Notes under the pieces: model-generated
Told to the model about the DNA's origin: nothing
Database searches by the model: none
Seen by the model: only the letters and a program-made list of their open reading frames with translations
In this document: positions 26,564 through 52,038 of the stretch, piece after piece
How positions within the stretch are numbered: the first letter of the stretch is position 1
How the letters are laid out: every line of letters starts with the position of its first letter
Assembly: GCF_034006445.1 (NCBI RefSeq)
Contig: NZ_JAVESS010000012.1
Coordinates: 1-64,000, forward strand
Direction of reading: 5' to 3'
Source of the DNA: Desulfovibrio sp.
GTDB taxonomy: Bacteria; Desulfobacterota; Desulfovibrionia; Desulfovibrionales; Desulfovibrionaceae
DNA length: 64,000 bases
Position numbers and translations under genes: made by a program

Positions 26564-26657
26564 GGAGAGGTAGCGAAGCTGGCCGTAACGCGCTCGACTC
26601 GAAATCGAGTTGTCCCTTAATCGGGGCACGTGGGTTCGAATCCCACCCTCTCCGCCA
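26564..26657 (+). tRNA. tRNA-Ser (anticodon CGA), integration target
   Basis: The acceptor arms GGAGAGG and CCTCTCC pair, the discriminator is G and CCA is encoded. The anticodon stem TCGACTCGAAATCGA carries the anticodon CGA, followed by a long variable arm typical of class II tRNA-Ser, then GTGGGTTCGAATCCCAC as the T arm. The last 25 bases are repeated downstream as att copies. Confidence 0.95.
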
Positions 26658-26659
26658 TT
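26635..26659 (+). other. att copy 1 (within the tRNA-Ser 3' end)
   Basis: 25-bp direct repeat running from TTCGAATCCCAC to CTCCGCCATT, comprising the T loop, T and acceptor stem 3' strands, CCA and two further bases. Perfect copies lie at 43840 and 52014. The integrase begins 190 bp downstream, the normal arrangement for a tRNA-targeting element. Confidence 0.95.
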
Positions 26660-28141: not shown

Positions 28142-28185
28142 AGAGTATGTAATGTTTGTTTAAGAACTATGCTATAGAGGTGATT

Positions 28186-32680: not shown

Positions 32681-33649
32681 CTAGAGCGCCTCCAAGAGAG
32701 TTTCAAAGGCACAGGAAAACGGTTCTATTTTTTCCAACTCAAGCTGGTATGATACTGATCTGACTCCGGCAGGTAACATGGAGCGAACCACCTTGGGGAA
32801 GTCTTTTTCGACAAGGTAGGCCTTCTTGTTAGTTGTTACCAATTTGGGGGTTTCATACTCGTGATGGGGGGCATACCCGTTTGCTGCAAGCTTGCTGTCA
32901 AAGCTTTCCAGGCTTTCTCTCTGTAACAGGTCACGAATATGTGTCACAAGCGCATTGAGCGACAAAGCTACATGGTTGTCCCGAGACTCTTGAAGAGTCA
33001 GAGTGAGAAGGTAGAGTTTTTCTTCAATAGACTCCAGTTGATCTTCGGAGGAAATCCGTACTGTGCTACGATCGGAGCTGGAGAGCGCTTTCACTTCAAC
33101 GGCCCTTCCTGAATAGATAAAGTCTTGATGTACCCATTCCGGACCTGTCCACGCCATCACTGCTGAGGCAGGATTCAAACCGACCTCAAGCAGCTTGTTC
33201 AAAAAGACAAGTTCGGCAAAAAGGCCACGGTATTCCTGAATGGTTAAGAGTCGAGAATTTTGTCCGGACAAAAAGGTTCGCCATCGCTTCAAGTGCTGCA
33301 TGGCCACAGAAATTGCTACATCCGGACGGTGCACTTCTATGAGGCTATGGAACAGGCTTTTGCACAAAGCATGAAAAAGATCGCAGTCAACTTGCCTGTC
33401 GAGAGTTAAGACCAACAATTGACAGTCCGTTGCAGGATCTTGGCGGAGGTCTGTGTCCACGCCTTTCACGGTAATCTTTTCTTGCACGAAAAGATTGCGG
33501 TGATCGCCTGTCAGTGAAATCAAAAAGAGAAGTTTTCCCTGAACATCCTTTCCCCAATAGGCAGGAATTACACTTCCATCAGGAATGAGTCTGACATTAT
33601 AGTCTCTCTCCGGTGTTGCAATCTCGTCCCACGGTAAGGAATTACTCAT
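32681..33649 (-). CDS. PD-(D/E)XK motif protein, DUF4420 type (322 aa)
   Basis: Residues 150-200 hold EYRGLFAELVFLNKLLEVG and HQDFIYSGRAVEVKALSSS, in which the D and E-x-K residues (QDF, VEVKA) form the nuclease-like site. Such proteins are known as partners of Z1 ATPases. ATG 33649 has a strong GAGGAGG ribosome-binding sequence and overlaps the end of the Z1 gene by eight bases; the frame extends to GTG 33685 but that is unlikely. It is probably the cutting subunit of the cluster (inference). Confidence 0.85.
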   Translation of the reverse strand: MSNSLPWDEIATPERDYNVRLIPDGSVIPAYWGKDVQGKLLFLISLTGDHRNLFVQEKITVKGVDTDLRQDPATDCQLLVLTLDRQVDCDLFHALCKSLFHSLIEVHRPDVAISVAMQHLKRWRTFLSGQNSRLLTIQEYRGLFAELVFLNKLLEVGLNPASAVMAWTGPEWVHQDFIYSGRAVEVKALSSSDRSTVRISSEDQLESIEEKLYLLTLTLQESRDNHVALSLNALVTHIRDLLQRESLESFDSKLAANGYAPHHEYETPKLVTTNKKAYLVEKDFPKVVRSMLPAGVRSVSYQLELEKIEPFSCAFETLLEAL

Positions 33650-36299
33650 CGAAATCCTCCTCGTCTTCCGGATTGTCCAATACACCCTGCATATTCTGAA
33701 CCCAGACCCTGTTTGCAGCTATCTCAACGGTGTGCGAGTAGTCTCCAAAGGGGAAGCTGATACCAAATGCCGGTACGCGCCGATACGCAACATCCGGAAA
33801 TTCCAGTATGTGCACCATCAGTAGCGGCTTGTTCCTCACTTCACGATAGTGCACGTCAGACGGTTTGCCACTCATTTTTTGATCTTGCTCATTGTATTCT
33901 TGGGCCAGCAAACGCGCTTTCTCTATCTGCTCTGGCGTAAGTCCCAGTTTTTCATCCCCACGGCTGGCAACTCGATTTTTGGCTGTTCGCCATGCCGTTC
34001 CTTCCCAAGGTTTTGCTGTACGCTTTTGAGCTCCCAGCTTGTATTGGCTTCCCTCTTCTCCATTATCTTTGAGAGAAACAAAAACTACATCGCCTTTGGG
34101 GTGCAGGTCGGAGATTTCATGCAGGTATAACGTTGCGGCATATTTGGCATCGGCCATGTCTGGATGGGCTTCAAATTTCTCCAGAAAATCTTCGATTACT
34201 GCAACATTAACATCCTTGGCCCACCATCCTTTCTCTGTCGGAACAATCTGAGCGGCAAGACCATTTGTCCAAAACTCTTCAATCAAATTTTCGTTTTTGA
34301 TGTTTGTTCTGTTGTCCGTAGGCAAGATATAACTTTCAACAAGTCTGCCACTCAGATTTTGTCGAATTTTTATCTTGGCGGCACTTAGCATTTTGTTTGC
34401 TGCAGTGATCAAAAGCTTTTCCGGGTGAGTTTCCACGTAAAGGCCAAACTGACGAGGAGTAAGACCATCCCTACGCATCTTCCTTATCTGTTGCCGTAGT
34501 TCTTCTGTTTTTTCGGCAATATGCCCATACCAATCTATGGAATCTGGTGACAAATACACTCGGCACAGATCTTCATAGCCAGGCCGATAACCAAACCATC
34601 TCCCCATCTGCATCAATGTATCGTACATGCGCGTGTTTCGATACATATAGCTCATCCAAAGTCCTTCCAGAGTCAACCCTCGTGACAGGCTCAAGCCTCC
34701 AATGGCCACGGCTGTCAGTCCGTGCCCATCTTTTTCGTATTTCTTGTAATCGAGTACTTCATCGGACTTACTGTTTATAACAAAGAACTTCAAAGTATCG
34801 AATGCCGAAAGCAGGTTTGCTTTTACATCATCCCAGTCTACGCCGCATTCTATAAACTCAGAATCATAAGCTTCACGTAATGCCTGCATGTATTTATTTC
34901 TTGATGAGATATCTTCCGGCATTGCATAGTTTGCTTTTACTGCTTCTCTTAGCTTTTTTTCGTGAAGCGCAAGAATATTTTTAACCGTCCGCTGGACGGC
35001 AACAAACCTGGACACATTGACTAGCATGGAGCAATGTTTGTTGTTTTGTCCTCGGCAGTTTCTGATAGTTTTGCCAACAATGAATTGGTTGAATGCCTTG
35101 TACAGGCTTGGCGGAAGCTCTGTAAGCGGGATATCTTTTTTATGTGTCAGCGGCAGGTAGTCTTCACAATCTCGAATCTCGCGCAATATTTTACTACTGC
35201 TTTCGTCTTCAAGGAAAACCTTGTCGGGACCAAAATAGGTGTTGGGAGCATCCAGAGAATAGATAAAATCTTTCGGGAACAGTTCTTCCCGAACATCCTG
35301 GTCGTACGCCTCCGGGTTGATAAAAATATTGGCAAAAGGAGTTGCGGTGTATCCTACATAACAGGATTTGGCGAAAAGATTCAAAATTTGACGTAACCAC
35401 GCGTTTGTTTTTGTTGGATCAAGCTCCGGCTTGTTTGTGTTGATCGAAGCATTGTCCGCCTCGTCGTCGATCATCAACATCGGGACATCGGTTATCTGCC
35501 CATTTTTCGAATTCAGCTCTTTCAGCCATTTGTGCAGTGCCTGGAGTGTAGTTACGTTCTTTTTGATCACCAGAACAATGGGCTTGCTGAAGTCATTCAG
35601 TTTCCAGCCACTTTTCTCGGCAGTATTCTTGTTGAAGTCTTCGTTGATGTTGGTAAGCGTGGCCGGGTGGGGGAAGTCGGAAGAAAATCTGCCTACGCCA
35701 ACAATGACTCGGTTGCCAGGGTCGCTGGACCGCCCGATAAACCCTTCGTCCATCCGTTCCTGGGTTTGCTTGCGCAAATTGTTATGGATACCGGCAATAA
35801 CAATAATAAATTTGTAACCTGCATCGGCAGCTCTGGCCACCAGCCCCATGTAGTTTGCGGTTTTTCCCGACTGGACGTGTCCTATAACTAGGCCCCGGCG
35901 GTCCCATGCCCCTTCACTCAAGGGATCTTGCAGATGACCAAGGATGCGTCCGCCAGTATCACTCAGGGCTTGTACGACCTGTGGTGCCCAGCCCTCCTGG
36001 CGTAAATATTTTTCATAGGCTTCGGAATATATCCAGGAGATGCTTCTTTTCAGCATCCATTCTTCGTCATGAGGAGTCTCTGTATCTACAATGGAGACGC
36101 CCTGTCCCATACGCGAGTCGATTGCCACTAGCGCCTGTTCCACAACGTTTGCAATGTCTCCAACAAAACCGGAAAGTTGAGCAAGTATTTTGGCTTTTTC
36201 TTCTACCTCCTCCCTTGTGGGGGGAGGCGTTTTGTCTCCAAGAAGAGAGATAAGAGAACTGGCGAGTTGTTTTTCTTTTTCCAATGCCGAATTACTCAT
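33642..36299 (-). CDS. Z1-domain superfamily II helicase-like ATPase (885 aa)
   Basis: A large P-loop ATPase. The Walker A motif GHVQSGKTANY is at about residue 142, the Walker B region MLMIDDEADN at about 277, motif III-like GYTATPFAN at 318. The Z1 domain follows in the second half: GGLSLSRGLTLEGLWMSY and LMQMGRWFGYRPGY, near 540-570, which correspond to helicase motifs V and VI. The start is ATG 36299 with GGAGGGG before it, overlapping the end of the MutL-like gene. The Z1 family is known mainly from restriction-like clusters; it is thought to act as a DNA translocase or helicase. Confidence 0.92.
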   Translation of the reverse strand: MSNSALEKEKQLASSLISLLGDKTPPPTREEVEEKAKILAQLSGFVGDIANVVEQALVAIDSRMGQGVSIVDTETPHDEEWMLKRSISWIYSEAYEKYLRQEGWAPQVVQALSDTGGRILGHLQDPLSEGAWDRRGLVIGHVQSGKTANYMGLVARAADAGYKFIIVIAGIHNNLRKQTQERMDEGFIGRSSDPGNRVIVGVGRFSSDFPHPATLTNINEDFNKNTAEKSGWKLNDFSKPIVLVIKKNVTTLQALHKWLKELNSKNGQITDVPMLMIDDEADNASINTNKPELDPTKTNAWLRQILNLFAKSCYVGYTATPFANIFINPEAYDQDVREELFPKDFIYSLDAPNTYFGPDKVFLEDESSSKILREIRDCEDYLPLTHKKDIPLTELPPSLYKAFNQFIVGKTIRNCRGQNNKHCSMLVNVSRFVAVQRTVKNILALHEKKLREAVKANYAMPEDISSRNKYMQALREAYDSEFIECGVDWDDVKANLLSAFDTLKFFVINSKSDEVLDYKKYEKDGHGLTAVAIGGLSLSRGLTLEGLWMSYMYRNTRMYDTLMQMGRWFGYRPGYEDLCRVYLSPDSIDWYGHIAEKTEELRQQIRKMRRDGLTPRQFGLYVETHPEKLLITAANKMLSAAKIKIRQNLSGRLVESYILPTDNRTNIKNENLIEEFWTNGLAAQIVPTEKGWWAKDVNVAVIEDFLEKFEAHPDMADAKYAATLYLHEISDLHPKGDVVFVSLKDNGEEGSQYKLGAQKRTAKPWEGTAWRTAKNRVASRGDEKLGLTPEQIEKARLLAQEYNEQDQKMSGKPSDVHYREVRNKPLLMVHILEFPDVAYRRVPAFGISFPFGDYSHTVEIAANRVWVQNMQGVLDNPEDEEDFDE

Positions 36300-37773
36300 A
36301 ACACCCCTCCCGGATGTATTTTTCAACAAGATCCGTTCTGCCATCCACCAGACGCAAAGACTGGACAACCTCCAGGAACTTTTCTCGCTCCAGTGGATCC
36401 GTTCCAAAAAGAGCAAAATGTACTTCCTTCAGCTTGGCCAAGCTCTCTTCATCAGACAAAGAACTCATATCCAGTTTTCTTGGATGCATGGAGAAATCGG
36501 AATAGATCATTTCTACAGGGACAGAAGACCCCACTGCTTCCAACAAAACTTCCAATATTCTGTTTTCGGCATCCGAAAATTTTGACTTCAAGGTTGCGAT
36601 AAGGGCATGATCTCTATTCAGGGCATAGCGGATGGAGCCGTTTTGTTCTGCGAATCTCTCCCAGATGGGAGCTTTGGTTTCGCTGAACAGCTTTTGTCCT
36701 CGCCCACGATGTATTCTTGTGCTGCTTTCGGAAATTTGGGGAAGTATTTGCCTCAAGCGCTCACGCACAAGGTATGGCGGCCTTACGGTTGATTTTTTGA
36801 TATCTATGGTCCAGGCGTCATCCAGAGTGTTGGAAAAATCGATCTGAACTCTGGCCAATTTGCTTGTTTCGCCTTTGGGAATAAGGCGAAACCAATCACC
36901 CCATGCCATCAGCCGTCCGTTTCTGTAAACGTAAGCTCCCTGATTGGAGAGAAATTCACTACGGCTTTGGTAGTAAGCTTCTTCACGTGCTGACAGGCGA
37001 GAATGATGAGGGAGGATATAAGCTTGAAGATATACTTCTTCGGCTCCAAGGTGAACGGTTTCCGGGGGAAGAAGTTGTGAACCGCTTTTTCTGCAAAAAG
37101 GGTCAAAGCCTTCGACGGGATGCCCGTTGATGCTTAGTGAGAGGCGCTTTCTTCCTCTTATTTCACCATCAAGGAAACGGTGAAATACGAGAGCCAGGTG
37201 CTTTTCCAGGATATCGAGCTTTTCATTAACCACTTCATCGTGATTATCTTTTTGGCTTTCATCAAAAAGTCGATCCAGCTTTCTCCATAACACTAAGGTT
37301 CCATTGCTGCCCAACTGGTTGATGAAAGGGACATCTGCAATGTCTGTTTCTTCGAGTACGGATATCAGCCAATCGTCAGTTTCTTTGACAAGGTCGAGAT
37401 CCCATTCGGCTCCACACCATTGGCCATCCTGGACACTGACAACAGTAAGTTTGAGACATTGAGAAAAAGAGGCCGTTTTGAGGCCAAGGCCAAACCTGCC
37501 AAGGTCCATCTTATTTCTTTTTTGTTCCGGCCCAAGAGCGCCATGTCTCATCGCAACAAGCAGATCCTCTTCGTTCATACCACAACCATTGTCCCAGATA
37601 GCAAGAATGGGGATATCCGAGGACACGTCACAGATAATACCCACTTCGGTGGCTTCGGCAGAAATACTGTTGTCCACAATATCTGCTACAGCAGTTTCAA
37701 GCGAATACCCGAGATCGCGCAATGACGTCGACATGGAGTGCGCACTGGGAGGAAGTGGATGCATTCTGGCCAT
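36292..37773 (-). CDS. MutL/MORC-like GHKL ATPase of a restriction cluster (493 aa)
   Basis: The GHKL ATP-binding fold is clear: the N box ETAVADIVDNSISA (about residues 26-39), G1 motif IWDNGCGMNEEDL and G2 motif DLGRFGLGLKTASF. A transducer domain follows with LSINGHPVEGFDPFC and a conserved lysine region. No endonuclease domain of MutL type is present. Prokaryotic MutL homologues of this sort lie in gene clusters with methylase, Z1 and PD-(D/E)XK proteins, and are thought to be ancestors of eukaryotic MORC proteins. ATP-driven dimerisation on DNA is presumed. Confidence 0.9.
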   Translation of the reverse strand: MARMHPLPPSAHSMSTSLRDLGYSLETAVADIVDNSISAEATEVGIICDVSSDIPILAIWDNGCGMNEEDLLVAMRHGALGPEQKRNKMDLGRFGLGLKTASFSQCLKLTVVSVQDGQWCGAEWDLDLVKETDDWLISVLEETDIADVPFINQLGSNGTLVLWRKLDRLFDESQKDNHDEVVNEKLDILEKHLALVFHRFLDGEIRGRKRLSLSINGHPVEGFDPFCRKSGSQLLPPETVHLGAEEVYLQAYILPHHSRLSAREEAYYQSRSEFLSNQGAYVYRNGRLMAWGDWFRLIPKGETSKLARVQIDFSNTLDDAWTIDIKKSTVRPPYLVRERLRQILPQISESSTRIHRGRGQKLFSETKAPIWERFAEQNGSIRYALNRDHALIATLKSKFSDAENRILEVLLEAVGSSVPVEMIYSDFSMHPRKLDMSSLSDEESLAKLKEVHFALFGTDPLEREKFLEVVQSLRLVDGRTDLVEKYIREGCYE

Positions 37774-37829: not shown

Positions 37830-39389
37830 CTAATAATTCCCCGCTCCATGAGTAAATTTCAATACTGCCCATACCTTTTCAGCTATTTGACGCGCCAGCA
37901 ACGGGGGGACAGCGTTCCCGACCTGTACGTATTGTGCTGTCCGTGGGCCTTCAAAAAAATAATTGTCGGGAAACGTTTGAAGCCGTGCTGCTTCACGTAC
38001 CGTCAGGCTGCGGCATTGCGTCGGGTCCGGATGGATAAACGAATGTCCGTCTTTGGCCAGATGGCTTGTAATAGTTGTCGAGGGGCGAGCTTCCAATTGG
38101 GCTTTGAACCTGTCATCAAAATGCCCGCTGTCCCAATTGGCATGCTCCGGAGGCAAGCCAGGGAAATCGAAGTCTTTGGCGGCAAGAGGATTTTTACCTT
38201 TGGCACGCGCAAAGGCCGCCACATATGCATACCTCCGCAAATCGCTGGCCATATGAGAGCGTGTTTCATGATTTAGCCAACCGCCAAGTTCTGTATCTCG
38301 CAACCATTCATGTAAAGCGGTTCCACGAGTAGGAAGATGAGCATAGTCTCCAGGGATCCATTGCCCCCCCCGGGAAAGAGTTCTCTGCTCAACATCTTTC
38401 GCGGTGAGGTGAAGCAGTTGTGCAAGACGATGGCTCTTGGCTTCACTCGCATGTTGGGACATAGATGTGCAGGCTTCGATAACAATATTTTTCCAGACAT
38501 CTATGGAGTCCATTTGGCGGGAGATGCCACTTCTCAGTGAAGGCATATCCCCTATGGCATCCCAAACTGTATTTGACAGTGAAGGCTGCAACTTGGGCAA
38601 AGAAAATGTAATATCTTCTCGAACTCCCACCAATATTACCCGGTGCCGCGCTTGAGGCACTCCATATTTCTCACACTGGACAATAAATTTTTTCAGATCG
38701 AGATCAGATGCATTCATGCCAGGTTCGTAACACGTGTCTGCAACCAGAGAATGTATGGTGTAATTGTAGTTTTCGACACTACGCTCACTCTTTCCCGGGC
38801 GTGCCAAATCTTCAAGAATACGATGGATGATATGTTTATGATCTAATTGGCAAGAGAGAAGTCCCCTGACATTCTCCATAACAAATACTGATGGTCGAAA
38901 TTGTCTGATCACATTTAGATATTCTTGATACAAATAATGGCGAGGGTCCTTTACGTTGTTGGCACCTGAGCGAACACGTCCAACGACGGAGTATGCCTGG
39001 CAAGGAGGGCCTCCAATTAAAACCCAATGTTCGTCGTTAGGAATCAATTTGGCAATCCGCTCATAGAGAAAAATATTGTCTTTGGGTTCACCCAATTCAA
39101 GTAAAAGAGCCTCCGAACCGGCCTCATCCCAGAGGTCTTCATCCTTAGATGCCACTGGAGAATTGGTTGACCCCTTGTAGTACGCATATAGAGTATCCAA
39201 CGGCCTTCCATGTCGTCTTAGCAATCGTGAATACGCGCGAAGCTTCAGAGTGCGTTGGGCAAATTTGTCTTTTTCGACGGATACGACTATTTTAAAAGGG
39301 TATGCACCATTCACCCGGAGAGAAGAAAAACCTTCTCCCAAACCTCCGGGCCCTGCAAATAAATCAACTATTTTTGTAGTCTGCATCAA
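37830..39389 (-). CDS. C5 cytosine-specific DNA methyltransferase (519 aa)
   Basis: This enzyme methylates cytosine and protects host DNA from the clustered nuclease. Canonical motifs in order: I VDLFAGPGGLGEGF, IV IGGPPCQAYS with catalytic Cys near residue 130, VI FVMENVRGLL, VIII ARHRVILVGVRED, IX and X RSLTVREAARLQTFPDNYFF and YVQVGNAVPPLLA. The long gap between motifs VIII and IX is the target-recognition part. A 36-bp spacer separates it from the divergent vsr gene, so their promoters must overlap or face each other. It is the first gene of the five-gene minus-strand unit. Confidence 0.95.
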   Translation of the reverse strand: MMQTTKIVDLFAGPGGLGEGFSSLRVNGAYPFKIVVSVEKDKFAQRTLKLRAYSRLLRRHGRPLDTLYAYYKGSTNSPVASKDEDLWDEAGSEALLLELGEPKDNIFLYERIAKLIPNDEHWVLIGGPPCQAYSVVGRVRSGANNVKDPRHYLYQEYLNVIRQFRPSVFVMENVRGLLSCQLDHKHIIHRILEDLARPGKSERSVENYNYTIHSLVADTCYEPGMNASDLDLKKFIVQCEKYGVPQARHRVILVGVREDITFSLPKLQPSLSNTVWDAIGDMPSLRSGISRQMDSIDVWKNIVIEACTSMSQHASEAKSHRLAQLLHLTAKDVEQRTLSRGGQWIPGDYAHLPTRGTALHEWLRDTELGGWLNHETRSHMASDLRRYAYVAAFARAKGKNPLAAKDFDFPGLPPEHANWDSGHFDDRFKAQLEARPSTTITSHLAKDGHSFIHPDPTQCRSLTVREAARLQTFPDNYFFEGPRTAQYVQVGNAVPPLLARQIAEKVWAVLKFTHGAGNY

Positions 39390-39424: not shown

Positions 39425-39883
39425 ATGGATGTCGTTTCCCCCGCAACTCGTTCTCGCATGATGGCCGGAATCCGTTCATCAGACACCAAGCCGGAGCTTG
39501 CTCTGAGAAGGAATCTGCACGCACGGGGTTTTCGTTATAGATTGAAGACCAAAATATTGGGCTATACTCCAGATGTAGTGTTACGTAAATATAAAGTGGT
39601 AATCTTTGTCCACGGATGCTTTTGGCACAGGCACAAACAATGCAAGTACACAACAATCCCAAAAACAAATATCCAAAAGTGGAAGACAAAATTTGCTGAA
39701 AATGAAGGCAGAGATTTGCGTGTTGAAACTATATTATTGGCATCTGGATGGCGGGTAGCAATAATCTGGGAGTGTTGGCTAAAAAGAAAGATGGATTTGG
39801 ACTGGCTTTATGAATGGATCGTCAGTCCTGCAGCAAACTATGTTTCATGGCCCAGCCCAGAAGCATTGCAGGATACAAAATAG
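39425..39883 (+). CDS. vsr: Very short patch repair endonuclease Vsr (152 aa)
   Basis: Vsr nicks at T:G mismatches that arise when 5-methylcytosine deaminates, and normally accompanies a C5 methylase. The match is strong: RSRMMAGIRSSDTKPELALRR at the start, then TPDVVLRKYKVVIFVHGCFW with the catalytic Asp, followed by HRH and W near KTNIQKWKTKFAEN, and GWRVAIIWECWL. Length is typical. It is divergent from the methylase, on the plus strand. Confidence 0.95.
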   Translation: MDVVSPATRSRMMAGIRSSDTKPELALRRNLHARGFRYRLKTKILGYTPDVVLRKYKVVIFVHGCFWHRHKQCKYTTIPKTNIQKWKTKFAENEGRDLRVETILLASGWRVAIIWECWLKRKMDLDWLYEWIVSPAANYVSWPSPEALQDTK

Positions 39884-41186: not shown

Positions 41187-41241
41187 AGAACCTCCTCAAT
41201 GGATATGAACTATGGCGTCCGTTTTTTCCAGCCTATCTCAG

Positions 41242-42113
41242 CTGGGAAAAATAATTATAGTGAAGACCAGTTCTTTGCGGCCTTACATGAAATTCACGTT
41301 TTTACTTATTTAACACTATGCGGAAAACCAAGCGTTGATTATGAACCAAAACAGGGAGGGGATTCTAGAAAAAAGAATCCAGAATACTGTATTAAGAATA
41401 GATTTATGATTCCCGGCAAAGTCCCTGGTGAGATGTTATACGCTGAAGAGGATTATATTTTTGATGTTGAAGTGAAAAGTATTGTTGGGCAACTTGATGA
41501 AATGATTGATCCGAAAAAATCATTTATAATACCAAGCATGGCAATCGAATACAGCAAGAGGGAAGATCTAATAATTTTATGTAGTGAACTTGAGTTGCAG
41601 GTTGAATTGCCGAATATTATTCAACTAAAAGATTTTTTGAATAGTGCTGCAAGTAAATTTACGTCGGCATTGCATAAAAATCATTTCAATATTTTACATA
41701 TTAACTGGACGCATAGAGAAATTCCTCACTTAAATTACATAGAACCGCTTTCGCTTCTTGATAACCCTATAAACGGACTATTACGCTACAAGGATATTGG
41801 AAAAAAATTTAAAATATCAAATGATGTTTTTGAAAAAATATCTGCTATTTTCATTTACAGCTATCCCAAACAAGCTCTCATGTTTGGCGATATTCGCTGG
41901 GTATTTTCCAACAAGCAGTGCGCAACGTTGTTCAATCAAAACCTTACTCAAGAGCAAAAGTCAAAATTAGCTCGCATTCTATCTATGGATCCATCCGCGA
42001 ATCCACAAATACAACCATTTTTGTTCTACTCACCAGAGACACATCCTAAGTCGTTAACATATGCAGAGTTCGAAAAAATAGGACAGGTTATAGAGCAAAT
42101 ACACCTAAAATAA
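41242..42113 (+). pseudogene. 5'-truncated gene of a PD-(D/E)XK-like protein
   Basis: The AT-rich gene is cut at its front by the IS right end; translation resumes at AGKNNYSEDQFFAALHEIHV. It contains YEPKQGGDSRKKNPEYCI followed by YIFDVEVKSIVG, with a D-x-E-x-K arrangement like PD-(D/E)XK nucleases, and LIILCSELELQVELPNIIQL. An open frame begins in the IS end at 41199, but that start is not natural. I do not recognise the family beyond the motif. Confidence 0.6.
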
Positions 42114-42938: not shown

Positions 42939-43247
42939 TTAGCTGCCAGCTTCGTAATATCCGGCTTCTTTCTGATGTTTCAGCGCCAGAATGTAAACCG
43001 AGTTGCCCAGCACTTCGTAGACCAGTACGTATCCGGCACCACCGAAGGGGATGAGCAGTTCCCGGTATTCCGGTTCCATGTCATCGGCAGGACGGCCAGC
43101 ATTGGGAAACTGCTCAAGAAGTAGCACTTTTTCCCGAATGGCCTTGATTGCGCCAATGGCAGCCTCTTCGCTTTTGTCCGCCAGGAACAGGTAAGCCTTC
43201 TCCAACCCGGCAGTGGCATTGTCCGTCCAATGAACTAGATATGACAT
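42939..43247 (-). CDS. ParE/RelE-family toxin (102 aa)
   Basis: A small toxin of the RelE/ParE fold: MSYLVHWTDNATAGLEKAYL, RPADDMEPEYRELLIPFGGA and YVLVYEVLGNSVYILALKHQ. The usual R-Y...H-Q order of the carboxy end is present. Members block translation or DNA gyrase when free of antitoxin; which of the two is unclear. It overlaps the antitoxin gene by 13 bases. Confidence 0.88.
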   Translation of the reverse strand: MSYLVHWTDNATAGLEKAYLFLADKSEEAAIGAIKAIREKVLLLEQFPNAGRPADDMEPEYRELLIPFGGAGYVLVYEVLGNSVYILALKHQKEAGYYEAGS

Positions 43248-43528
43248 TTGGGCATGGGCACCTTTTCGCCCTGAATGATCTTATCCATCCATTCGACAAC
43301 TTCGGCGTTTGTCAGATGCAGGCCGGTTTGCATATAATGCTCATGTGCGGCCTTGGCTTCATGGCGCAAAGCTTCCCGTTTTTCCTCCCGCTCGACATAG
43401 TTCTCTATGGCTTGCAGCATAATGGCGTGGGCGGATTGGTTCCGGGCGTCAGCAAGGCTTTTAATTCGCTCGCGCAGGGGATTGGGGAGTTTTACAGAAG
43501 CAGGCGTTGTTGCTATATTTTGTTGCAT
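43235..43528 (-). CDS. Ribbon-helix-helix antitoxin, ParD/CopG-like (97 aa)
   Basis: The amino end (ATTPASVKLPNPLRERIKSL and SAHAIMLQAIENYV) is a ribbon-helix-helix DNA-binding domain, followed by an acidic toxin-binding tail. It lies just upstream of and overlaps the toxin gene, the standard arrangement of a toxin-antitoxin operon. It probably represses its own promoter. Confidence 0.87.
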   Translation of the reverse strand: MQQNIATTPASVKLPNPLRERIKSLADARNQSAHAIMLQAIENYVEREEKREALRHEAKAAHEHYMQTGLHLTNAEVVEWMDKIIQGEKVPMPKCHI

Positions 43529-43839: not shown

Positions 43840-43864
43840 TTCGAATCCCACCCTCTCCGCCATT
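43840..43864 (+). other. att copy 2, junction between island segments 1 and 2
   Basis: Identical over 25 bp to the 3' end of tRNA-Ser. It ends segment 1 (17.2 kb) and starts segment 2. The DNA before it, 43529-43839, is AT-rich and shows no gene besides the toxin-antitoxin promoter. Confidence 0.95.
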
Positions 43865-44153
43865 AATACATAATAAAAACGGCGTGTTGCTTTAGATAGC
43901 ACCACGCCGTTTTCGCGTTCAAAAAGGACATATTTTTAGCGAGCACATGGCCATGTACATACCGTTGTACACACTTTTGCTCAAACCTCTGTGGAAATGT
44001 GCTGCTGTTGCAACAGGCATTGTTAATCAGTCGCCCCTTAAAAACAAACAACCATTTGAAATGCGTTGAAATATTACTAAATACTGTAGCGTTTTCAACG
44101 GGGAATGTAATAAAAGATGTAAAAATCCGTTTGAAACGGAGCGTAAATTTCGC

Positions 44154-44497
44154 ATGAAACCAAAGAGTCCGCCCAGCCACAAGCAGACCCATTTGCTTTA
44201 CCAAGACCTGCTTGAGCAGCTGAATCCCAAAGATCCGCTGCTTCTTTTGGCGGGAAAACTGTCTTAAGAACTGTTTGAACGGGAGTTCGCTCCGCTATAC
44301 GCAAAGCGTGCAAAGACTTTGGGCACCGCAGTGCCATTGAACCGGTCATCGGACACTTGAAAAGCGACGTTCGCCTGGCACGCAACTATCTCAAAGGCAC
44401 AATTGGCGATGCGATAAACCTGCTTATGTCCGCTACCGCCTTCAACTGCGCAAAATGGATGAAGGCTGTGGTCCAAAGTCTATTTTTGTACTCGTAG
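44154..44497 (+). pseudogene. IS5-family transposase remnant, internally deleted
   Basis: The amino end is MKPKSPPSHKQTHLLYQDLL then EQLNPKDPLLLLAGKLS, followed by a TAA stop and, in the same frame, ELFEREFAPLYAKRAK. In another frame the carboxy end continues as FGHRSAIEPVIGHLKSDVRL and NYLKGTIGDAINLLMSATAF, stop at 44495. The middle with most catalytic residues is missing. Three separate lesions (stop, deletion, frameshift) make it dead. Confidence 0.85.
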
Positions 44498-44734
44498 TAC
44501 TATGCAAATTCATTCGCAGGGATGACGACCACATGCCTACAGCGGCGTAAAGCCATTTGTTAAGGGCCGACTACTTAAAATGCGACTTTGTGCGGGGTTT
44601 CTTTGATCTGCATGATGGGTGGGATAGGGCCGCCCGCATTGTGCAATGCCGACATTGCGGTGTCTCTGACGGACTGCGAAGGGGGAGTGTCGGGGCGAGG
44701 GGGTGATTTTGAGCAAGATGGGTTGTTTTTAGAG

Positions 44735-44880
44735 CGTTACGAGTTCCTGCTGTCTATGCTGGACGACGAGACGTTTATGACGTTATAGGAAGTCTATGTG
44801 GCTATCGAAAACTGGTGCCAGCACTGCAACTACCGTAAGCCGCATCGCTCCCTTAACGGTATGCCTCCCGTGTCATTGAC
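44735..44880 (+). pseudogene. IS3-family transposase carboxy-terminal remnant
   Basis: YEFLLSMLDDETFMTL, an amber stop, then EVYVAIENWCQHCNYRKPHR and SLNGMPPVSL: the last part of an IS3-type orfB (ENW..YN..RPH.SL). It is a different element from the one at 39982. The remaining DNA of the 690-bp gap to the next gene shows nothing further. Confidence 0.75.
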
Positions 44881-45188
44881 AGTTTTTATCCCTCCCTCAA
44901 TAGGAGAAATGGGCCCACTCTCACCTCCGACAGCATTATCGGCCTTACAGGCGGCAGAAACAGAACCACAAAGAATCTACCACTAGCACTTAGCCTGGTA
45001 CAAAAAAAGGAGGCTGGTCAAATTTCGCAAAATAAATATGGTAATATCGCCATCTCATCTTAAAAAAGGCTTTTTTACTTTTCTCAATTGCAATACGGTT
45101 GTGCTTTCTTTGTAATTGAAAATTGCCATGCAAATTGCACCTGTGTTAGAATTACATAAATACAGCTGTTGCTGAAAAGGAGATTTCA

Positions 45189-45782
45189 ATGCGGTTGAGT
45201 CCCCATATCGCGAAATTTTTTTTTGTCATGGCTAATCTTGCTGTTATAATCATTGGCAGCAATCTTGCCATGGCAGAAGAAAATAAAATTATTGTCTATG
45301 GAACAGATTCTTGCCCAATTACAAAACGATATACACAGGCACTGGATGAATTGCATGTGCCTTATGAGTATAAAATAATTACAGATTCGAAAAACCAAGA
45401 TGAAATGTGGTTGAAACTCACTAACGCTGGGTATTCCAGACAGTCAGTGGATCTGCCTGTACTACAGTACCAAGGAGAAGTAGCATCAAGGCCCACTCTT
45501 TCTCATGTAATTCAGCCATACTTGAGTCCAGATTTTCTTCCTCAGCAATATAAAATTGTGGTATATGGCCCAAATTCTGGACGGACGGCGGCATTGCTCA
45601 AGGATTTAACTGTATTAAAAATTAATTTTGAATACAAAGATATTTCTCAGCCTAAAGAAAATGCGGAAATGTTTAAGTTTGTACCTGGAAAATCTGTATA
45701 TCCACCGGTAGTAGTTGTGAATAAAAAAGTGCTAACCAATCCCATGATAACCTCGGTATTATTAGCCCTTAAGCCACAATAA
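45189..45782 (+). CDS. Exported double glutaredoxin-like protein (197 aa)
   Basis: A signal peptide occupies residues 1-30 (FVMANLAVIIIGSNLAMAEE). Two glutaredoxin-fold repeats follow: KIIVYGTDSCPITKRYTQAL at about 33 and KIVVYGPNSGRTAALLKDLT at about 118. In the first the active site is C-P-I-T instead of CPxC; in the second both cysteines are gone. The first retains the DLPVLQYQGE cis-proline region, the second YPPVVVVNKK. It might act as a monothiol carrier or binding protein in the periplasm. The gene is AT-rich. A possible promoter is TTGCAC/TAAATA upstream, uncertain. Confidence 0.65.
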   Translation: MRLSPHIAKFFFVMANLAVIIIGSNLAMAEENKIIVYGTDSCPITKRYTQALDELHVPYEYKIITDSKNQDEMWLKLTNAGYSRQSVDLPVLQYQGEVASRPTLSHVIQPYLSPDFLPQQYKIVVYGPNSGRTAALLKDLTVLKINFEYKDISQPKENAEMFKFVPGKSVYPPVVVVNKKVLTNPMITSVLLALKPQ

Positions 45783-45791
45783 AAAGCGCTA

Positions 45792-45942
45792 CTAGATCAG
45801 ATTAACTTTGAAATGCTTCGCATTTCAAAGTTTGCACTCAGCCGAAAGTGTGATTCTCAACTGAATCCACGCCACGTTGTGGCGCGCTGCACTTTCGTGC
45901 AGCGTTAGATCATTTACACCTTTTCAAAGTTAAAATGCTCTA
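45792..45942. repeat. Dispersed intergenic element, family A, copy 5
   Basis: From CTAGATCAGATTAACTTTG to AAAATGCTCTA. The interior has the TGGCGCGCTGCACTTTCGTG block of copy 1 in the other orientation. It lies 10 bp after the glutaredoxin-like gene inside island segment 2. The rest of the 325-bp gap shows a C-rich run (46061-46070) but no gene. Confidence 0.8.
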
Positions 45943-46107
45943 ACTGTAGAATATAAAAACAACAGCCCCAAAGCCGCACGCCAACACAGTGCTTTGGGGC
46001 TGTTTGCAATACTCATACAGATGGGTTTGAGGAGACACAGTAGACAAGGCGACGCTCGATCCCCCCCCCCACGCAACAGAAAGTCTGTTATCACCCAAGA
46101 TGCTTTC

Positions 46108-46974
46108 CTACTCTGAGTCTGCACGCTCCTGAAGCGAACGCAACAAGGCGTCCGCGGGCGGATAGACTTGGCGCAACTGACTGGCCTGCAACATAGCCTC
46201 AAAACCCCATTTGCCATTGTCCTGCCTGGAGAGCCAAGTAATATAAAGAAGCGCCTTGAGCTTGTCAGTAGCCTTCAGGTCTTGAATTTCCTTTGGCATG
46301 CCGGGCAGGGCAGATTTGGCAACCACAACAAGGGATTGCGTTGCCTTATGGCCACCCCCATGCACCTCAAGCACATAGTTTCCCGGCGTAGGGTTTGCCC
46401 CTTCAAGTACAGTCGACGGCTGCGCCAGATTGTTTTTTTGAATCAAGACAGCCGCATCCTGAGAATGAATTAGTCGTATGCTGTAGGGTGCGGCTCCGCC
46501 GTGCCAGATGACGGGCCAGTCTTGATGACCAATACTAACGACCTGCTCGTGAGGCCTGAATACCGGAACAACAAGGGCCGGAGCCTGGCCACGAGTCACC
46601 AGTATGACTTGTTGTGATTGCTTGCGAGCCCCCATGCCAGCAAGCCAATGCATTATGTTGCTTATTACGGAGGGCTGCTCCGCCTTAATGGATATAAGGC
46701 CGTATTGTGGGGCATTGGCTTTATTGATGGTCAATTGCTCAGCCCGCCCACTAAGGTCAACCGTTACAGTCGTTTCGGGCGCAGTGACCGTAATTCTATC
46801 GCCCTGAAAAATAAGCATTCCCACTTCGGGCGACAATGATTCTTGCCCTCGCAGTATTCGCACAGAGTGGGCAGAGCCATTGATACCGGATACTAGCCCC
46901 ACAGGATAACTTTCTGCACGAAGGTTCAGGGGAAACAGCAGTACAAGTGCGGCCACCATATAGAGGCGTAACAT
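46108..46974 (-). CDS. Secreted FecR-like protein of the CHAT cassette (288 aa)
   Basis: A signal peptide (residues 1-20, MVAALVLLFPLNLRAES) is followed by a beta-rich domain like FecR: GLVSGINGSAHSVRILRG, GMLIFQGDRITVTAPETTVT, VDLSGRAEQLTINKANAP. In FecR-type proteins the periplasmic domain carries a signal across the membrane; here there is no transmembrane helix after the signal sequence. The carboxy half is helical (IQDLKATDKLKALLYITWLS). It starts two bases after the CHASE2 gene ends, so it is cotranscribed with it. Assignment to FecR rests on pattern only. Confidence 0.6.
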   Translation of the reverse strand: MLRLYMVAALVLLFPLNLRAESYPVGLVSGINGSAHSVRILRGQESLSPEVGMLIFQGDRITVTAPETTVTVDLSGRAEQLTINKANAPQYGLISIKAEQPSVISNIMHWLAGMGARKQSQQVILVTRGQAPALVVPVFRPHEQVVSIGHQDWPVIWHGGAAPYSIRLIHSQDAAVLIQKNNLAQPSTVLEGANPTPGNYVLEVHGGGHKATQSLVVVAKSALPGMPKEIQDLKATDKLKALLYITWLSRQDNGKWGFEAMLQASQLRQVYPPADALLRSLQERADSE

Positions 46975-46976
46975 AG

Positions 46977-48452
46977 CTATTGACCTTTGTTTTGGTTATG
47001 GTGAGCATTTTCCTTTTCTGAAATTTTTCTCATTATCTTGAGAATTGGTATTGTGACAAGAAAAATTACAAAATCGAAAAAGTATCCTTGTCGATAGGCC
47101 CAAAAAACCAAAGGTAAACCCATTATTGCAAACAACCAAGACAGTATTTCTCCCCATAGATGATTGAGATACAGAAAACAGCATGCGGACAAGACGATTA
47201 ACCCTATGCAAAACAGTACCCTGACTGGCCACGGTAGAGAATGCTGCACGCCATAGGTGAAAAGTGAGCGGAGTGAGTTGAGGATGATGACAGCCCCGGG
47301 CAAGGGACCTAGTGTTGTTTCATGAATATCAAAGCTGTCGTCAAAACTTGCACCGATTATTACAATTCTGCCGTGCAGCATGTCGTTCAAAAAAGGTTGC
47401 ACGTTGCCCGAACAAAGTGAATGAGCGGGCAGTGTGATAAGGAGGGGCCTTGCCTGTGCTCCGTCAATAATTTGAGGGGGCGCTGTGCCCGGCTTCATGG
47501 AATAAAAAATCCGATTTTCCTGTCCATCTTCATCAAGGGAAAAGACCTGCTCACCTACGACCAGAGAATTGCGCCTGCCCCCGTCCGGGCTGGAGCAAAA
47601 GCCCTCGGCGTCTTGTAACTGGGCTGTCATTTCCTCCAATAAATTCCCATTTGGGCCACGCGATTGCAGCGCGTAGGCCAACAGCTGCACAGAAGGTAAA
47701 AGCGCCGTTTTGTTATCTTGGGCAGCGCACACCGCGATCTTCCAGCGCCGAATACTGTGGCTGTCGTCTCGCAAAAATATGGGAAAGGCCCAATACAACC
47801 TGTCGGACTCAGCCACAGTCTTATCCAGAAAACTCTGCCGCACAGTTGGGGGCTTGTTTGGATCAGCACTTTTGCGCAGCGATTTGACAAGAATGATTGG
47901 TGGCCCTGCGGGCAGCTGTGCCAAGGTTTTTTGGAGCTCGCCGTCACGCTCTGGGGCCTCCTGATTGGAGCGGGCAAGGTCAACATCCACAATGACCAGG
48001 CTGGGTTGCGCTGCGGCTATGGTTTTTATGAGGCAGGCCAGCTTGTCTCTTGGGGTTAAAAACGGCTCGCCCCAGGAACGGTAAGTGTTTTCGTCCATAT
48101 CAACAAAAGCATATAAGTGTTCGAGCTTGCCCGAACCTTCTCCACTGTCGCTATGGGTGCCAAAATCCATGGCAATAACCCAGTCTTGAATTCTTTCCAC
48201 CTTTGCCTGCATCCATAAATTCAGGGGAGTACTGCTCAAGATCAACAGGCTGCTTGCTCCAAGCAGGGTGGCGGCCAGCAAGTAGCGTTTATTCTTGCCA
48301 AGTTCTGACCAGCGCGTCTTTATACATTCTGGCGCGAACCTGTTCACGACTTTTGAAATCAGCCCGATCAGTACTGTTAAAGGAAAGGTGTCCTCGATGA
48401 CCTTTCCTAAAGGGTACACCTTGTTCCATAGCTGTTTTAACCTGTTCGACAT
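46977..48452 (-). CDS. CHASE2-domain membrane protein (491 aa)
   Basis: CHASE2 is an extracytoplasmic sensory domain. A membrane helix near residue 55 (YLLAATLLGASSLLILSSTP) leads into the domain: VERIQDWVIAMDFG, LYAFVDMDENTYRSWGE, SLVIVDVDLARSN, GRIVIIGASFDDSFDIHETT and PGAVIILNSLRSLFTYG. Three more hydrophobic segments end the protein (VRVLFCIGLIVLSACCFLYL onward), the usual order for CHASE2 proteins. No kinase or cyclase output domain follows, so it must signal through its partners. ATG 48452 has CGGAG before it; GTG 48485 is an in-frame alternative. Confidence 0.85.
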   Translation of the reverse strand: MSNRLKQLWNKVYPLGKVIEDTFPLTVLIGLISKVVNRFAPECIKTRWSELGKNKRYLLAATLLGASSLLILSSTPLNLWMQAKVERIQDWVIAMDFGTHSDSGEGSGKLEHLYAFVDMDENTYRSWGEPFLTPRDKLACLIKTIAAAQPSLVIVDVDLARSNQEAPERDGELQKTLAQLPAGPPIILVKSLRKSADPNKPPTVRQSFLDKTVAESDRLYWAFPIFLRDDSHSIRRWKIAVCAAQDNKTALLPSVQLLAYALQSRGPNGNLLEEMTAQLQDAEGFCSSPDGGRRNSLVVGEQVFSLDEDGQENRIFYSMKPGTAPPQIIDGAQARPLLITLPAHSLCSGNVQPFLNDMLHGRIVIIGASFDDSFDIHETTLGPLPGAVIILNSLRSLFTYGVQHSLPWPVRVLFCIGLIVLSACCFLYLNHLWGEILSWLFAIMGLPLVFWAYRQGYFFDFVIFLVTIPILKIMRKISEKENAHHNQNKGQ

Positions 48453-48583
48453 GGCTGATTTTCTCCGTGCAAATAAGCCAAACACCTAAAGTGAACATCT
48501 CTATCCAGGTTAAAAGCGACTGCAAACTTTTTTCCATCGATGGCTGGAATGCAGCATTCACAAAAATTAGGGCATGGATGCAA

Positions 48584-51493
48584 CTATTTATCGCCAATAT
48601 AAATAAAAGCTCCCCAGTACAATGGATTATCAGAATTGAACCGTTTTCTTGTTATATCGCGCTCTTTCAATGCCGCATGTCGCAGGGCCTGGGCCTTGGG
48701 CATGCCCTTTGCCAGATTGTCATAAAAAAATTCCATCAGTTCCTGCGTTTCCTTATCGGGCACAGACCACATGCTCATGACCATTCCCTTGGCACCAGCC
48801 TGGGTAATGGCCCGGCGCAGCCCAAAAACCCCTTCGCCTGTTTTTACGTCGCCAAGCCCCGTTTGGCAGGCAGATAGCACGACAATTTCCGTGCCGTTGA
48901 TGGGCATAGTCAAGAATTTTTCTGCGGTGACAATGCCATCAATTCCCATACCCTTGAGGGCGGTGTTGGCCCCCGCCAATGCAATGCCTGAACGCGCCAG
49001 GGGATTTTCGTAGTGCCGGGCAGGGTCGGAAGTCAAACCTGAAAACGAAGAAAACTGGCTCAAAACCTCTGGCCCACGAGAATTCAGAGTGTCTTGCATT
49101 TCCTGATCCGAAAGAAAAAAACCGTGAGTGGCCAGATGTAGATAACGCGGGGCCGGACCCTTTTGAAGTTCGCTCTCCACCGCGTCTGCCCCGACACGAA
49201 GGCGGGCATTTTCGCCAATCATTTTGGCCACGGCCTCTGCTTCTACCCGGGTGGCGGGCAAAGGGTTCAATGTCAATGCCCGCAGATCGGCTGAGCGCTG
49301 AAAGGTGCGGCCTGGTTGGGTAGCTTCTGCCATGTGGCCGGATGCGGCGTTGGACGCGCTGGTAGCGTGGGCATCCATGTCAAAGTCCGGGTCACCCAGA
49401 ACGAGGGAGCGTCCCTTGGCTGCGGGGACGTCGTCCATAGCCACAAGGTCACGACCAGAGCAGACATAGTTGAACGTATACTTTTCGATCAGCAAGCGGT
49501 TATTGCTGTCTCGCAGAATTTCAAAGGGGATGAGGTTCAAAACCCCGTCTGGGGATATGAATATGTTTTTGGCATTCCCGATGCCTGTTGCCAGTGGTGC
49601 AAACACTAGCCTGTTCAGCCTGTGGCCAAACAGGGCGATAGCTTCTGGATTCTGCCCGTCTTGCAGGGCAAGGCGCAGTGCTGCTACGGCCTGCTCAATG
49701 GGCGTAGCCTCACCCAGATCAATGAGAGTCAGACTATCAGGGTTGCCTGCTGGCAGCACAAAGGCGATATAGTGTGAAGGCTTCCAGCTTTCACAGATGT
49801 CCGCGGCCTTGAAATCATAGATATCGATCTTGGCAAAATCCACCAGGGTCGAACCGGCAGGAAGAGCCTTTGCAACTGTTGCCGCATCTACTTGGCGCCG
49901 TTTGCGGTCACGGGCATAGTTTTGGCTGCACTTTGCCAATTCTGCTTCTATATCCGCCTGCTCTTTTTTGAGTTCTGCCAAACGAGCCTGATGAGCCTCA
50001 GCCGACCCCTCTCTTGGCCCCATAAAGGTAAGTTCCGTGACCTCGGTACAAAGTTGCGCGAGTCTTTCAAACAAAATTTTGCCCTGTGGATCACCTGCTT
50101 GAATCAGGGCTTCACGAAACTGCCGCTGGGCTTCGAGGGCCGCGCCTTTACGTTTGAGCCAAACTGCAAAAGCATGATCCCTCGCCGCTCTGTTTGTGGG
50201 GACCTGAGTGGCGACAACTGTCATGTACACGTCAAACCAAACACGCATATTAGACAAAAAAGCAATTTTTTGGGCTTCTGATATCATGCCCATGACCTGA
50301 TCAATGAGTTCTTTTTCGATGTCTAGTCCACGTTGCATGAGAGGGAGGGCTTGATCCTGCTTGTCCTGAGCTACCAGCGCGGTTGCCAGGTTAAGTAGAT
50401 TGCTTGCGACCTGTGGATGTTCTGATCCCAGTTTTTTTTCACTGATCTCCAGGGCGGTTCTATAAAAATATTCTGCCTTGCTTGCTTCACCCATCCGCCT
50501 ATAAAGCACTCCAAGGTTGCCTTGGATCATTGCAAAATCTGGATGATTTGGCCCAAGAGCTTTTTTCTGAATTTCTAAAGCCCGCAGATAAAAGACTTCG
50601 GCTTCTGCGTATTCGCCTAGATCGCAGTGTAAAACTCCTAGCAAACCCAAGTAGTTCGCCAATTCAGGATGCCACGGATCAAGTTTGCTTTCAGCGATTG
50701 CCAAGGCGCGCTCCATCAGTTGTAAGGCATCGGAATATGCATACTTCCTCACGTAGATCACTGCCAAAGCACTAAGAGATGGTGCGAGGGTAAGATGATC
50801 TGGGCCGAGCTTCTTTTCACGTATCAGTATTGCACGTTTAACTATCGCCTCAGCTTTTTCATATGCGCTTACTTTGCAATATACATTGCCCAGATTTCCT
50901 AATGTAGTAGCAATTTCAGGATCTTCAGGATTCAGCTTTTCAGTGATCGACAATGAGTGTTGGAGGAATATTTCGGCTTTGTCATAGCGGGCAATTCCCG
51001 TATATAATAGTCCAAGATTGTTCAAAATAGTGGCAGCTATCATATTGTCCGGGCCAAAATTTTTTTCATTTATTTCTAGTGCCCGTTGCATCAGGGGCTC
51101 GGCCTTAAAAAATTCTCCTTCGGCAAGATACGCCTCAGAAAGCAATATTAGTGTGGACACAACCTCTTTTGGTTTGGATTGGTCGTTCATTTCCTGAAGG
51201 GCTAGGGCTTGTTCACAACACTCTACTGCTTGTTTATAGTCGCCAGCAGCGATGTATAGCCGTGCCAATACGTCGGACGACAAGGCTACCCAAGGATGTT
51301 GCTTGCCCAATTTTTTCTCGAATTTCGCCCTATTTTTTTTAATCATCTCTATGGCATCTGCATGCCTTCCTGCATCATATAGTTTTTTTGCTCTTAGCTC
51401 CATAACTTCGAAATCATTTCTAGCCGTTATAACAACAAAATATGAAAAATATGAAACAATTACTATGGCAATAATTAAAAGTATCCGCCGCAT
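48584..51493 (-). CDS. TPR-CHAT protease, membrane-anchored (969 aa)
   Basis: An uncleaved signal anchor is at residues 3-23 (RILLIIAIVIVSYFSYFVVI). About eight 42-residue kinesin-light-chain-type TPRs follow (e.g. HPELANYLGLLGVLHCDLGE, AEVFYLRALEIQKKALGPNH). The carboxy 330 residues are a CHAT peptidase domain, of the caspase/separase clan: the catalytic histidine H790 in LHLATHGFFLS and cysteine C876 in VLSACQTGLGD are both present, followed by GVFGLRRAITQAGAKGMVMS and MWSVPD. So it is likely an active cysteine protease, with the protease most probably outside the cytoplasm. It is the first gene of a minus-strand unit with CHASE2 and FecR-like genes. Confidence 0.9.
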   Translation of the reverse strand: MRRILLIIAIVIVSYFSYFVVITARNDFEVMELRAKKLYDAGRHADAIEMIKKNRAKFEKKLGKQHPWVALSSDVLARLYIAAGDYKQAVECCEQALALQEMNDQSKPKEVVSTLILLSEAYLAEGEFFKAEPLMQRALEINEKNFGPDNMIAATILNNLGLLYTGIARYDKAEIFLQHSLSITEKLNPEDPEIATTLGNLGNVYCKVSAYEKAEAIVKRAILIREKKLGPDHLTLAPSLSALAVIYVRKYAYSDALQLMERALAIAESKLDPWHPELANYLGLLGVLHCDLGEYAEAEVFYLRALEIQKKALGPNHPDFAMIQGNLGVLYRRMGEASKAEYFYRTALEISEKKLGSEHPQVASNLLNLATALVAQDKQDQALPLMQRGLDIEKELIDQVMGMISEAQKIAFLSNMRVWFDVYMTVVATQVPTNRAARDHAFAVWLKRKGAALEAQRQFREALIQAGDPQGKILFERLAQLCTEVTELTFMGPREGSAEAHQARLAELKKEQADIEAELAKCSQNYARDRKRRQVDAATVAKALPAGSTLVDFAKIDIYDFKAADICESWKPSHYIAFVLPAGNPDSLTLIDLGEATPIEQAVAALRLALQDGQNPEAIALFGHRLNRLVFAPLATGIGNAKNIFISPDGVLNLIPFEILRDSNNRLLIEKYTFNYVCSGRDLVAMDDVPAAKGRSLVLGDPDFDMDAHATSASNAASGHMAEATQPGRTFQRSADLRALTLNPLPATRVEAEAVAKMIGENARLRVGADAVESELQKGPAPRYLHLATHGFFLSDQEMQDTLNSRGPEVLSQFSSFSGLTSDPARHYENPLARSGIALAGANTALKGMGIDGIVTAEKFLTMPINGTEIVVLSACQTGLGDVKTGEGVFGLRRAITQAGAKGMVMSMWSVPDKETQELMEFFYDNLAKGMPKAQALRHAALKERDITRKRFNSDNPLYWGAFIYIGDK

Positions 51494-51745
51494 GATTTGC
51501 TCTCCGCATCAGGGTTGAAGGCATAGCGACTGTAACAAACAAACTACATCGATGAATATGCTGATTGATGTTAGGAATCGTAACCAACCTACCATTTTTC
51601 ATAAAGCAAAAATTTTCTGGCCCTTCCATGTTGCCAGAGGGTTCAACAGTGTTGCCTCCATCGCCAATGTGAGTACCAGCGGGCCTCAAACTTGGCGATG
51701 ATGCCATTACACTTATCAAGCAAGCGTTGTGCTGCTGAGGTGATA

Positions 51746-51895
51746 ATGACGACTCCAGCACACCGGCGCCATGACACTTCAGATGAGGCATGGAAAAAGC
51801 CTGAGCCCCATTTGCCAGGGAGACAAGGAAGTTCGGGTGGGATTGCGCAGGACAACAGACAATTTATCGACGCAGTGTTCTGGGTTATGCGTACC
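51746..51895 (+). pseudogene. IS5-family transposase amino-terminal fragment
   Basis: MTTPAHRRHDTSDEAWKKPE then PHLPGRQGSSGGIAQDNRQF and IDAVFWVMRT match the amino end of IS5-family (IS427-type) transposases; the sequence diverges abruptly after RT. This is a different subfamily from the remnant at 44154. The rest of the gap 51494-52013 has no gene I can support. Confidence 0.8.
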
Positions 51896-52013
51896 CAGGA
51901 TATTCACTCGGTCCCTGTTCAATTAAAAGGGATACAAATATCTGGATATGAAACCGTATATGATCTTTTTTCACAAAATATTTATATTGATATTTAAGGC
52001 AGTTGCTCTATTT

Positions 52014-52038
52014 TTCGAATCCCACCCTCTCCGCCATT
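52014..52038 (+). other. att copy 3, right end of island segment 2
   Basis: Third perfect copy of the 25-bp tRNA-Ser end. The chromosome backbone probably resumes at 52039. The next 230 bp are AT-rich without a gene. Confidence 0.95.

Follow-up and report, generated by a model that had tools for sequence, protein, structure and literature searches.

A mobile segment of a Desulfovibrio genome unites an exported TPR-CHAT protease with an output-less CHASE2 protein and a secreted FecR-like protein

Three adjacent genes on the minus strand of a Desulfovibrio sp. contig (NZ_JAVESS010000012.1), at positions 46108-51493 of the window, encode a TPR-CHAT protease, a CHASE2 protein that lacks an output domain and a secreted FecR-like protein. 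The window is the whole stretch of 64,000 nucleotides that was analysed, and all positions refer to it. What sets this locus apart is that a mobile segment joins an exported TPR-CHAT to both a FecR-like protein and a CHASE2 that lacks an output. The chances are about even that the trio forms one envelope signalling module gained by lateral transfer, with a periplasmic CHAT protease taking the place of the usual cytoplasmic output of CHASE2. A preliminary description of this DNA had placed three open reading frames here in a single direction, and their coordinates and strand are borne out by an ORF check. The genes follow each other in this order:

51493-48584, minus strand: TPR-CHAT protease of 969 aa (Pfam, alignment, AlphaFold, hydrophobicity), with an N-terminal hydrophobic anchor at about residues 4-22, a TPR superhelix at about 35-460 and the CHAT domain at 623-968
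48485-46977, minus strand: CHASE2 protein of 502 aa with no output domain (Pfam, hydrophobic segments), after a gap of 98 bp
46974-46108, minus strand: secreted FecR-like protein of 288 aa with a signal peptide, starting after a gap of 2 bp past the CHASE2 stop codon

The CHAT gene and the CHASE2 gene are the only ones of their kind in the genome and lie side by side. Export or membrane signals are seen in all three proteins, which supports, at this locus, the envelope-facing topology that had been proposed.

The CHAT domain of the protease belongs to PF12770 (3.9e-71, 240 bits against a curated cut-off of 24 in Pfam) and is accompanied by many TPRs. The catalytic dyad had been assigned to H790 and C876; both positions are correct and both residues are unchanged in five aligned homologs. 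The N-terminus, MRRILLIIAIVIVSYFSYFVVITARND, carries an anchor oriented N-in, C-out according to the positive-inside rule, and anchors, signal peptides or lipobox-like starts are also present in the CHAT relatives. Given this anchor and the export-type starts of the relatives, a periplasmic location of the CHAT domain is a reading consistent with the sequences. In the AlphaFold model the TPRs are confident and the pLDDT is below 50 over most of the CHAT domain, and a sequence search of the PDB returns TPR matches only. The closest CHAT relative (49% identity) is a second copy in Solidesulfovibrio aerotolerans, whose neighbour is a sulfatase and not CHASE2.

To our knowledge, no ligand is known for CHASE2, a sensor domain common in bacteria whose signalling usually targets a cytoplasmic domain. 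The domain found here belongs to PF05226 (4.6e-16, 59.6 bits against a cut-off of 26.3 in Pfam) and is extracytoplasmic, flanked by a single hydrophobic segment on the N-terminal side and several on the C-terminal side, with peaks near 68-90 and 415-485. Pfam finds nothing past the CHASE2 domain; the protein stops soon after the last hydrophobic segment, and, as had been claimed, the cytoplasmic output domain that marks a CHASE2 signalling receptor is absent. Nothing significant is returned by a sequence search of the PDB with this protein.

The FecR-like label of the third protein is tentative. The protein has no direct match in Pfam, PF04773 included, but a profile made from it and its S. 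aerotolerans homolog reaches two proteins that carry PF04773, which is an indirect link to FecR. Its AlphaFold model is beta-rich with a helical C-terminus and has a low confidence (mean pLDDT 54). In 199 genomes of the family, full-length matches to the profile occur only in the own genome and in S. aerotolerans, with two weak partial matches besides; in 395 genomes of the phylum, the own protein and one weak match are found, and the 16 sampled genomes of the genus give no match outside the own genome. Hits of a separate, local FecR profile for L068, L075 and L085 were rejected as circular, that profile having been built from the same five proteins that were scored, and those proteins are FecR-like by eye only.

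The trio is placed in a tract marked by a 25-bp repeat, TTCGAATCCCACCCTCTCCGCCATT, with three identical copies, the first of which coincides with the end of a tRNA gene:

26635-26659, plus strand: att copy 1, 3' end of tRNA-Ser(CGA) (tRNA at 26564-26657)
26849-28141, plus strand: phage-type integrase of the tRNA-proximal segment (class by sequence character)
43840-43864, plus strand: att copy 2, junction of two tandem segments (sequence identity)
44154-44510, plus strand: frameshifted debris resembling a transposase, past att copy 2 and ahead of the trio (by eye)
45189-45782, plus strand: exported glutaredoxin-like protein in the att segment of the trio, with two Grx-like halves and a CPIT motif in the first
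51692-51997, plus strand: N-terminal remnant of an IS4/5-family transposase (E 2.3e-7, under the curated threshold), separating the trio from att copy 3
52014-52038, plus strand: att copy 3, outer end of the trio segment (sequence identity)

Three att copies imply two tandem segments, and the trio lies between copies 2 and 3, in the segment 43865-52013 (8.2 kb). The description of the trio as att-flanked is thus upheld, with the integrase only in the preceding segment; none is recognised in 43865-52013. The cargo of the trio segment consists of the trio, the glutaredoxin-like gene on the opposite strand and the transposase debris, of which a 37-aa piece at 44154-44510 has no Pfam match. The glutaredoxin-like protein is weakly related to the UXX-star selenoprotein families but has Cys instead. 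Conceivably it could hold a catalytic cysteine in the periplasm in its reduced state, and its gene was not found at the S. aerotolerans trio locus. The first segment (17 kb) contains, together with the integrase, an MZA defence system (30608-37773; MzaB, C, D and E by PADLOC), a cytosine methyltransferase (37830-39389), a short Vsr-type endonuclease-like ORF (39425-39883, by eye) and an IS3-like element (by eye). A toxin of the ParE type, paired with an RHH-domain protein (42939-43528), adjoins att copy 2 in this segment. Two further island ORFs, at 28156-30030 (624 aa) and 41199-42113 (304 aa), have no Pfam or NCBIfam match.

The composition of the trio is foreign to its surroundings, with a GC of 0.496 versus 0.594 outside the island and a GC3 of 0.49-0.54 versus 0.65-0.81 in four flanking genes. 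Of the features expected of a tRNA-targeted integrative element, the tRNA-end repeats and the foreign composition are present, and the integrase is found in the adjacent segment only. The att repeats, the composition and the transposase debris agree with the mobility claimed for this locus, and lateral acquisition is the best reading of the trio segment from its sequence. The tRNA-Ser gene is an integration hot spot, since another genome (G593:C1, near 784000; L200) carries the same integrase at the same tRNA-Ser, split by an IS and with different cargo, and a further genome (G587) has a pair of att copies at a distance of 13 kb. The att-distal chromosomal flank, which holds an MCP gene, shows no synteny in the relatives examined, and for this reason the empty site was not recovered.

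The search for the trio in other genomes, which the preliminary description had called for, finds it in full in a genome taken as S. aerotolerans DSM 16695 (G097, locus L065). The gene order differs there (CHASE2, FecR-like, CHAT), and the proteins are 36, 38 and 35% identical to those of the own locus. This copy is likewise AT-rich (GC 0.53 versus 0.64 in the rest of the contig stretch) and adjoins, where the contig ends, a transposase of the IS5 type that is read in two frames. Among the 14 genomes of the S. aerotolerans genus a match is found in that species only (1/14); in the own genus the trio is present in 1/16 sampled genomes and CHAT in just one other. Consequently, the trio is sporadic in both genera. 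No trio was found on plasmids, searched with CHAT and CHASE2, or in the viral and phage sets, searched with CHAT, where the viral contigs gave no relative and the phages TPR matches only.

Looser relatives of the protease are far more common. A single-sequence CHAT search of the genome contigs found nothing and an alignment-based search was needed. In the best 79 distinct loci of 560 confirmed CHAT relatives from the scan of named genomes, together with the family loci, the exported TPR-CHAT is widespread and mostly stands without a CHASE2 neighbour. The searches turned up no characterisation of this broad family, and we know of no role for its members. The proposal of a general enrichment in islands is not supported, given this breadth and the finding of an integrase homolog at only one among about 100 loci (phmmer with the integrase of the window, a low-sensitivity test). 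At two loci (L067 in G075 and L075 in G106), a lipoprotein-like TPR-CHAT lies beside exported YdbL-like and large AsmA/YdbH-like proteins, named by sequence character.

CHASE2 lies near CHAT far more often than a rough chance estimate predicts. CHASE2 is found at 5 kb or less from CHAT in 5/14 family genomes inspected (G000, G097, G106, G074 and G088), with about 0.34 pairs expected by chance (P about 3e-5, a rough Poisson estimate for randomly placed genes, taking each genome to have two CHASE2 genes). The CHASE2 partner is output-less in four cases: the own locus, S. aerotolerans, G106 (L075), where it accompanies a small exported protein and a lipoprotein-like CHAT is encoded convergently, and G415 (L085), where an exported CHAT is followed by an output-less CHASE2 of 482 aa and then by an exported protein on the other strand. 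In four others it carries a cyclase or SpoIIE output: G088 (L081), with a CHASE2-cyclase 6 bp after CHAT; G074 (L082), with CHAT, a DUF4384 protein and a CHASE2-SpoIIE; and L089 and L095, with a CHASE2-cyclase near the CHAT. That enrichment and the presence of the same three genes together in S. aerotolerans speak against the three genes being chance neighbours, that is, island cargo with no shared function. The transposase debris in 43865-52013, the 98-bp gap between CHAT and CHASE2 and the gene order unlike that of S. aerotolerans would fit such an origin, but it is already disfavoured and appears very improbable.

CHAT and CHASE2 are also combined in cyanobacterial fusions. At L111 a CHAT-CHASE2 fusion precedes an exported TPR-CHAT by 17 bp, and DUF928 comes next, in place of the FecR-like gene of the trio; at L138 a similar fusion lies about 5 kb away. 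In both fusions, unlike the trio, CHAT precedes the membrane span of CHASE2 and is therefore probably cytoplasmic. The exported TPR-CHATs of Desulfobacterota, Cyanobacteria and Myxococcota ('CHAT domain-containing tetratricopeptide repeat protein') share with the protease described here the signal or anchor, the kinesin-light-chain-like TPRs and the C-terminal CHAT; they differ in that most have neither a CHASE2 nor a FecR-like neighbour.

In the proposed signalling module, an N-terminal anchor would tether the CHAT protease to the inner membrane so that the TPRs and the catalytic domain face the periplasm. Sensing or gating would fall to the periplasmic CHASE2 domain and, as a co-sensor, the secreted FecR-like protein. 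Because this CHASE2 lacks a kinase, cyclase or phosphatase on the cytoplasmic side, the signal would not be relayed inward; instead, CHAT would deliver the output by cleaving at least one envelope protein in the periplasm. For the output-less form, the simplest candidate for the output is CHAT, which would face the same compartment as the sensor domain. We infer the interaction of the three proteins, the role of CHAT as output rather than input and the cleavage of periplasmic substrates. The module is supported by the adjacency of CHAT and CHASE2 and their uniqueness in the genome, the recurrence of the trio, the enriched CHASE2-CHAT adjacency, the fusions, the export or lipoprotein signals of the relatives and the invariant dyad. 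The pairing of FecR and CHASE2 is, in addition, documented in the BiofilmReg operon of Burkholderia contaminans, which comprises a response regulator, a LysM-FecR protein and a CHASE2 histidine kinase (PMC5192318). On the other hand, most exported TPR-CHATs lack a CHASE2 neighbour, so that CHAT can work without CHASE2, the closest CHAT relative adjoins a sulfatase and the CHAT domain is poorly modelled.

The BiofilmReg operon resembles the trio in the secreted FecR-domain protein adjoining a CHASE2 membrane protein (PMC5192318). It differs in the kinase on CHASE2, the response regulator and the LysM on the FecR protein, none of which is recognised at or beside the trio, where a protease is found instead. 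CHASE2-FecR modules serve as sensors in other bacteria (PMC5192318), and CHAT could instead be an input that processes or activates the FecR-like protein, CHASE2 or another exported protein, in a module that would regulate envelope physiology via host partners and not by protease output. The occurrence of CHAT next to CHASE2 proteins that bear their own cytoplasmic output is in line with this role, but the CHASE2 of the trio has no output domain and the genome has no other CHASE2; we regard it as unlikely.

Two other CHAT proteins offer further comparisons. Craspase (type III-E CRISPR, Csx29) also joins TPRs to a CHAT protease, whose gating by a partner is known there and would be analogous in the trio. 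Craspase is, however, cytoplasmic, RNA-guided and partnered by Cas7-11, whereas the protease of the trio has an export anchor and no Cas7-11 (gRAMP)-type gene is recognised among the surrounding ORFs. HetF of Anabaena is likewise a membrane protein with CHAT and TPR, but its CHAT is N-terminal (aa 1-555), followed by the TM and then the TPR (PMC8406250).

CHAT proteases act as effectors in conflict systems such as Craspase and the DGR-linked conflict proteins (PMC10907252), and the preliminary description had suggested a defence or cell-suicide circuit. In such an anti-phage circuit, the envelope sensor would detect infection or envelope damage and CHAT would kill or arrest the cell from the periplasmic side. 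Its main support is the tandem arrangement with the MZA defence island at the same tRNA, together with the mobile and sporadic character of an accessory locus present in so few genomes of either genus. Against it stand the cytoplasmic location of the defence CHATs found in the literature, the lack of a specific PADLOC model, the viral and phage results given above and the rarity of integrases near the exported TPR-CHAT clade. The coupling of CHASE2 to a cyclase or phosphatase in relatives also counts against it, and points to signalling no less than to suicide. Such a circuit seems improbable. In its more specific form, a mobile caspase-like switch for immunity or suicide in the periplasm, in which the output-less CHASE2 and the secreted partner gate a membrane-tethered CHAT, killing the cell or blocking invaders from outside the cytoplasm, it is distinctly improbable.

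PADLOC 2.0.0 has no specific model for the trio; its matches are a generic TPR one and a marginal one to CHAT (E 0.0009), with none to the CHASE2 and FecR-like proteins. Within open-access papers, a body of literature without preprints and with few subscription journals, none combines the term CHASE2 with CHAT domain or CHAT protease and no paper found describes the trio, in agreement with the initial view that this three-part arrangement is uncharacterised.

The signalling module remains the preferred reading. As a compact mobile set of an output-less CHASE2, one CHAT protease and one secreted partner, the trio is a minimal system in which to address the ligand of CHASE2 and the role of the TPR-CHATs. 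If the protease is the output, the trio would represent a bacterial signalling route that operates by proteolysis on the periplasmic side of the membrane.
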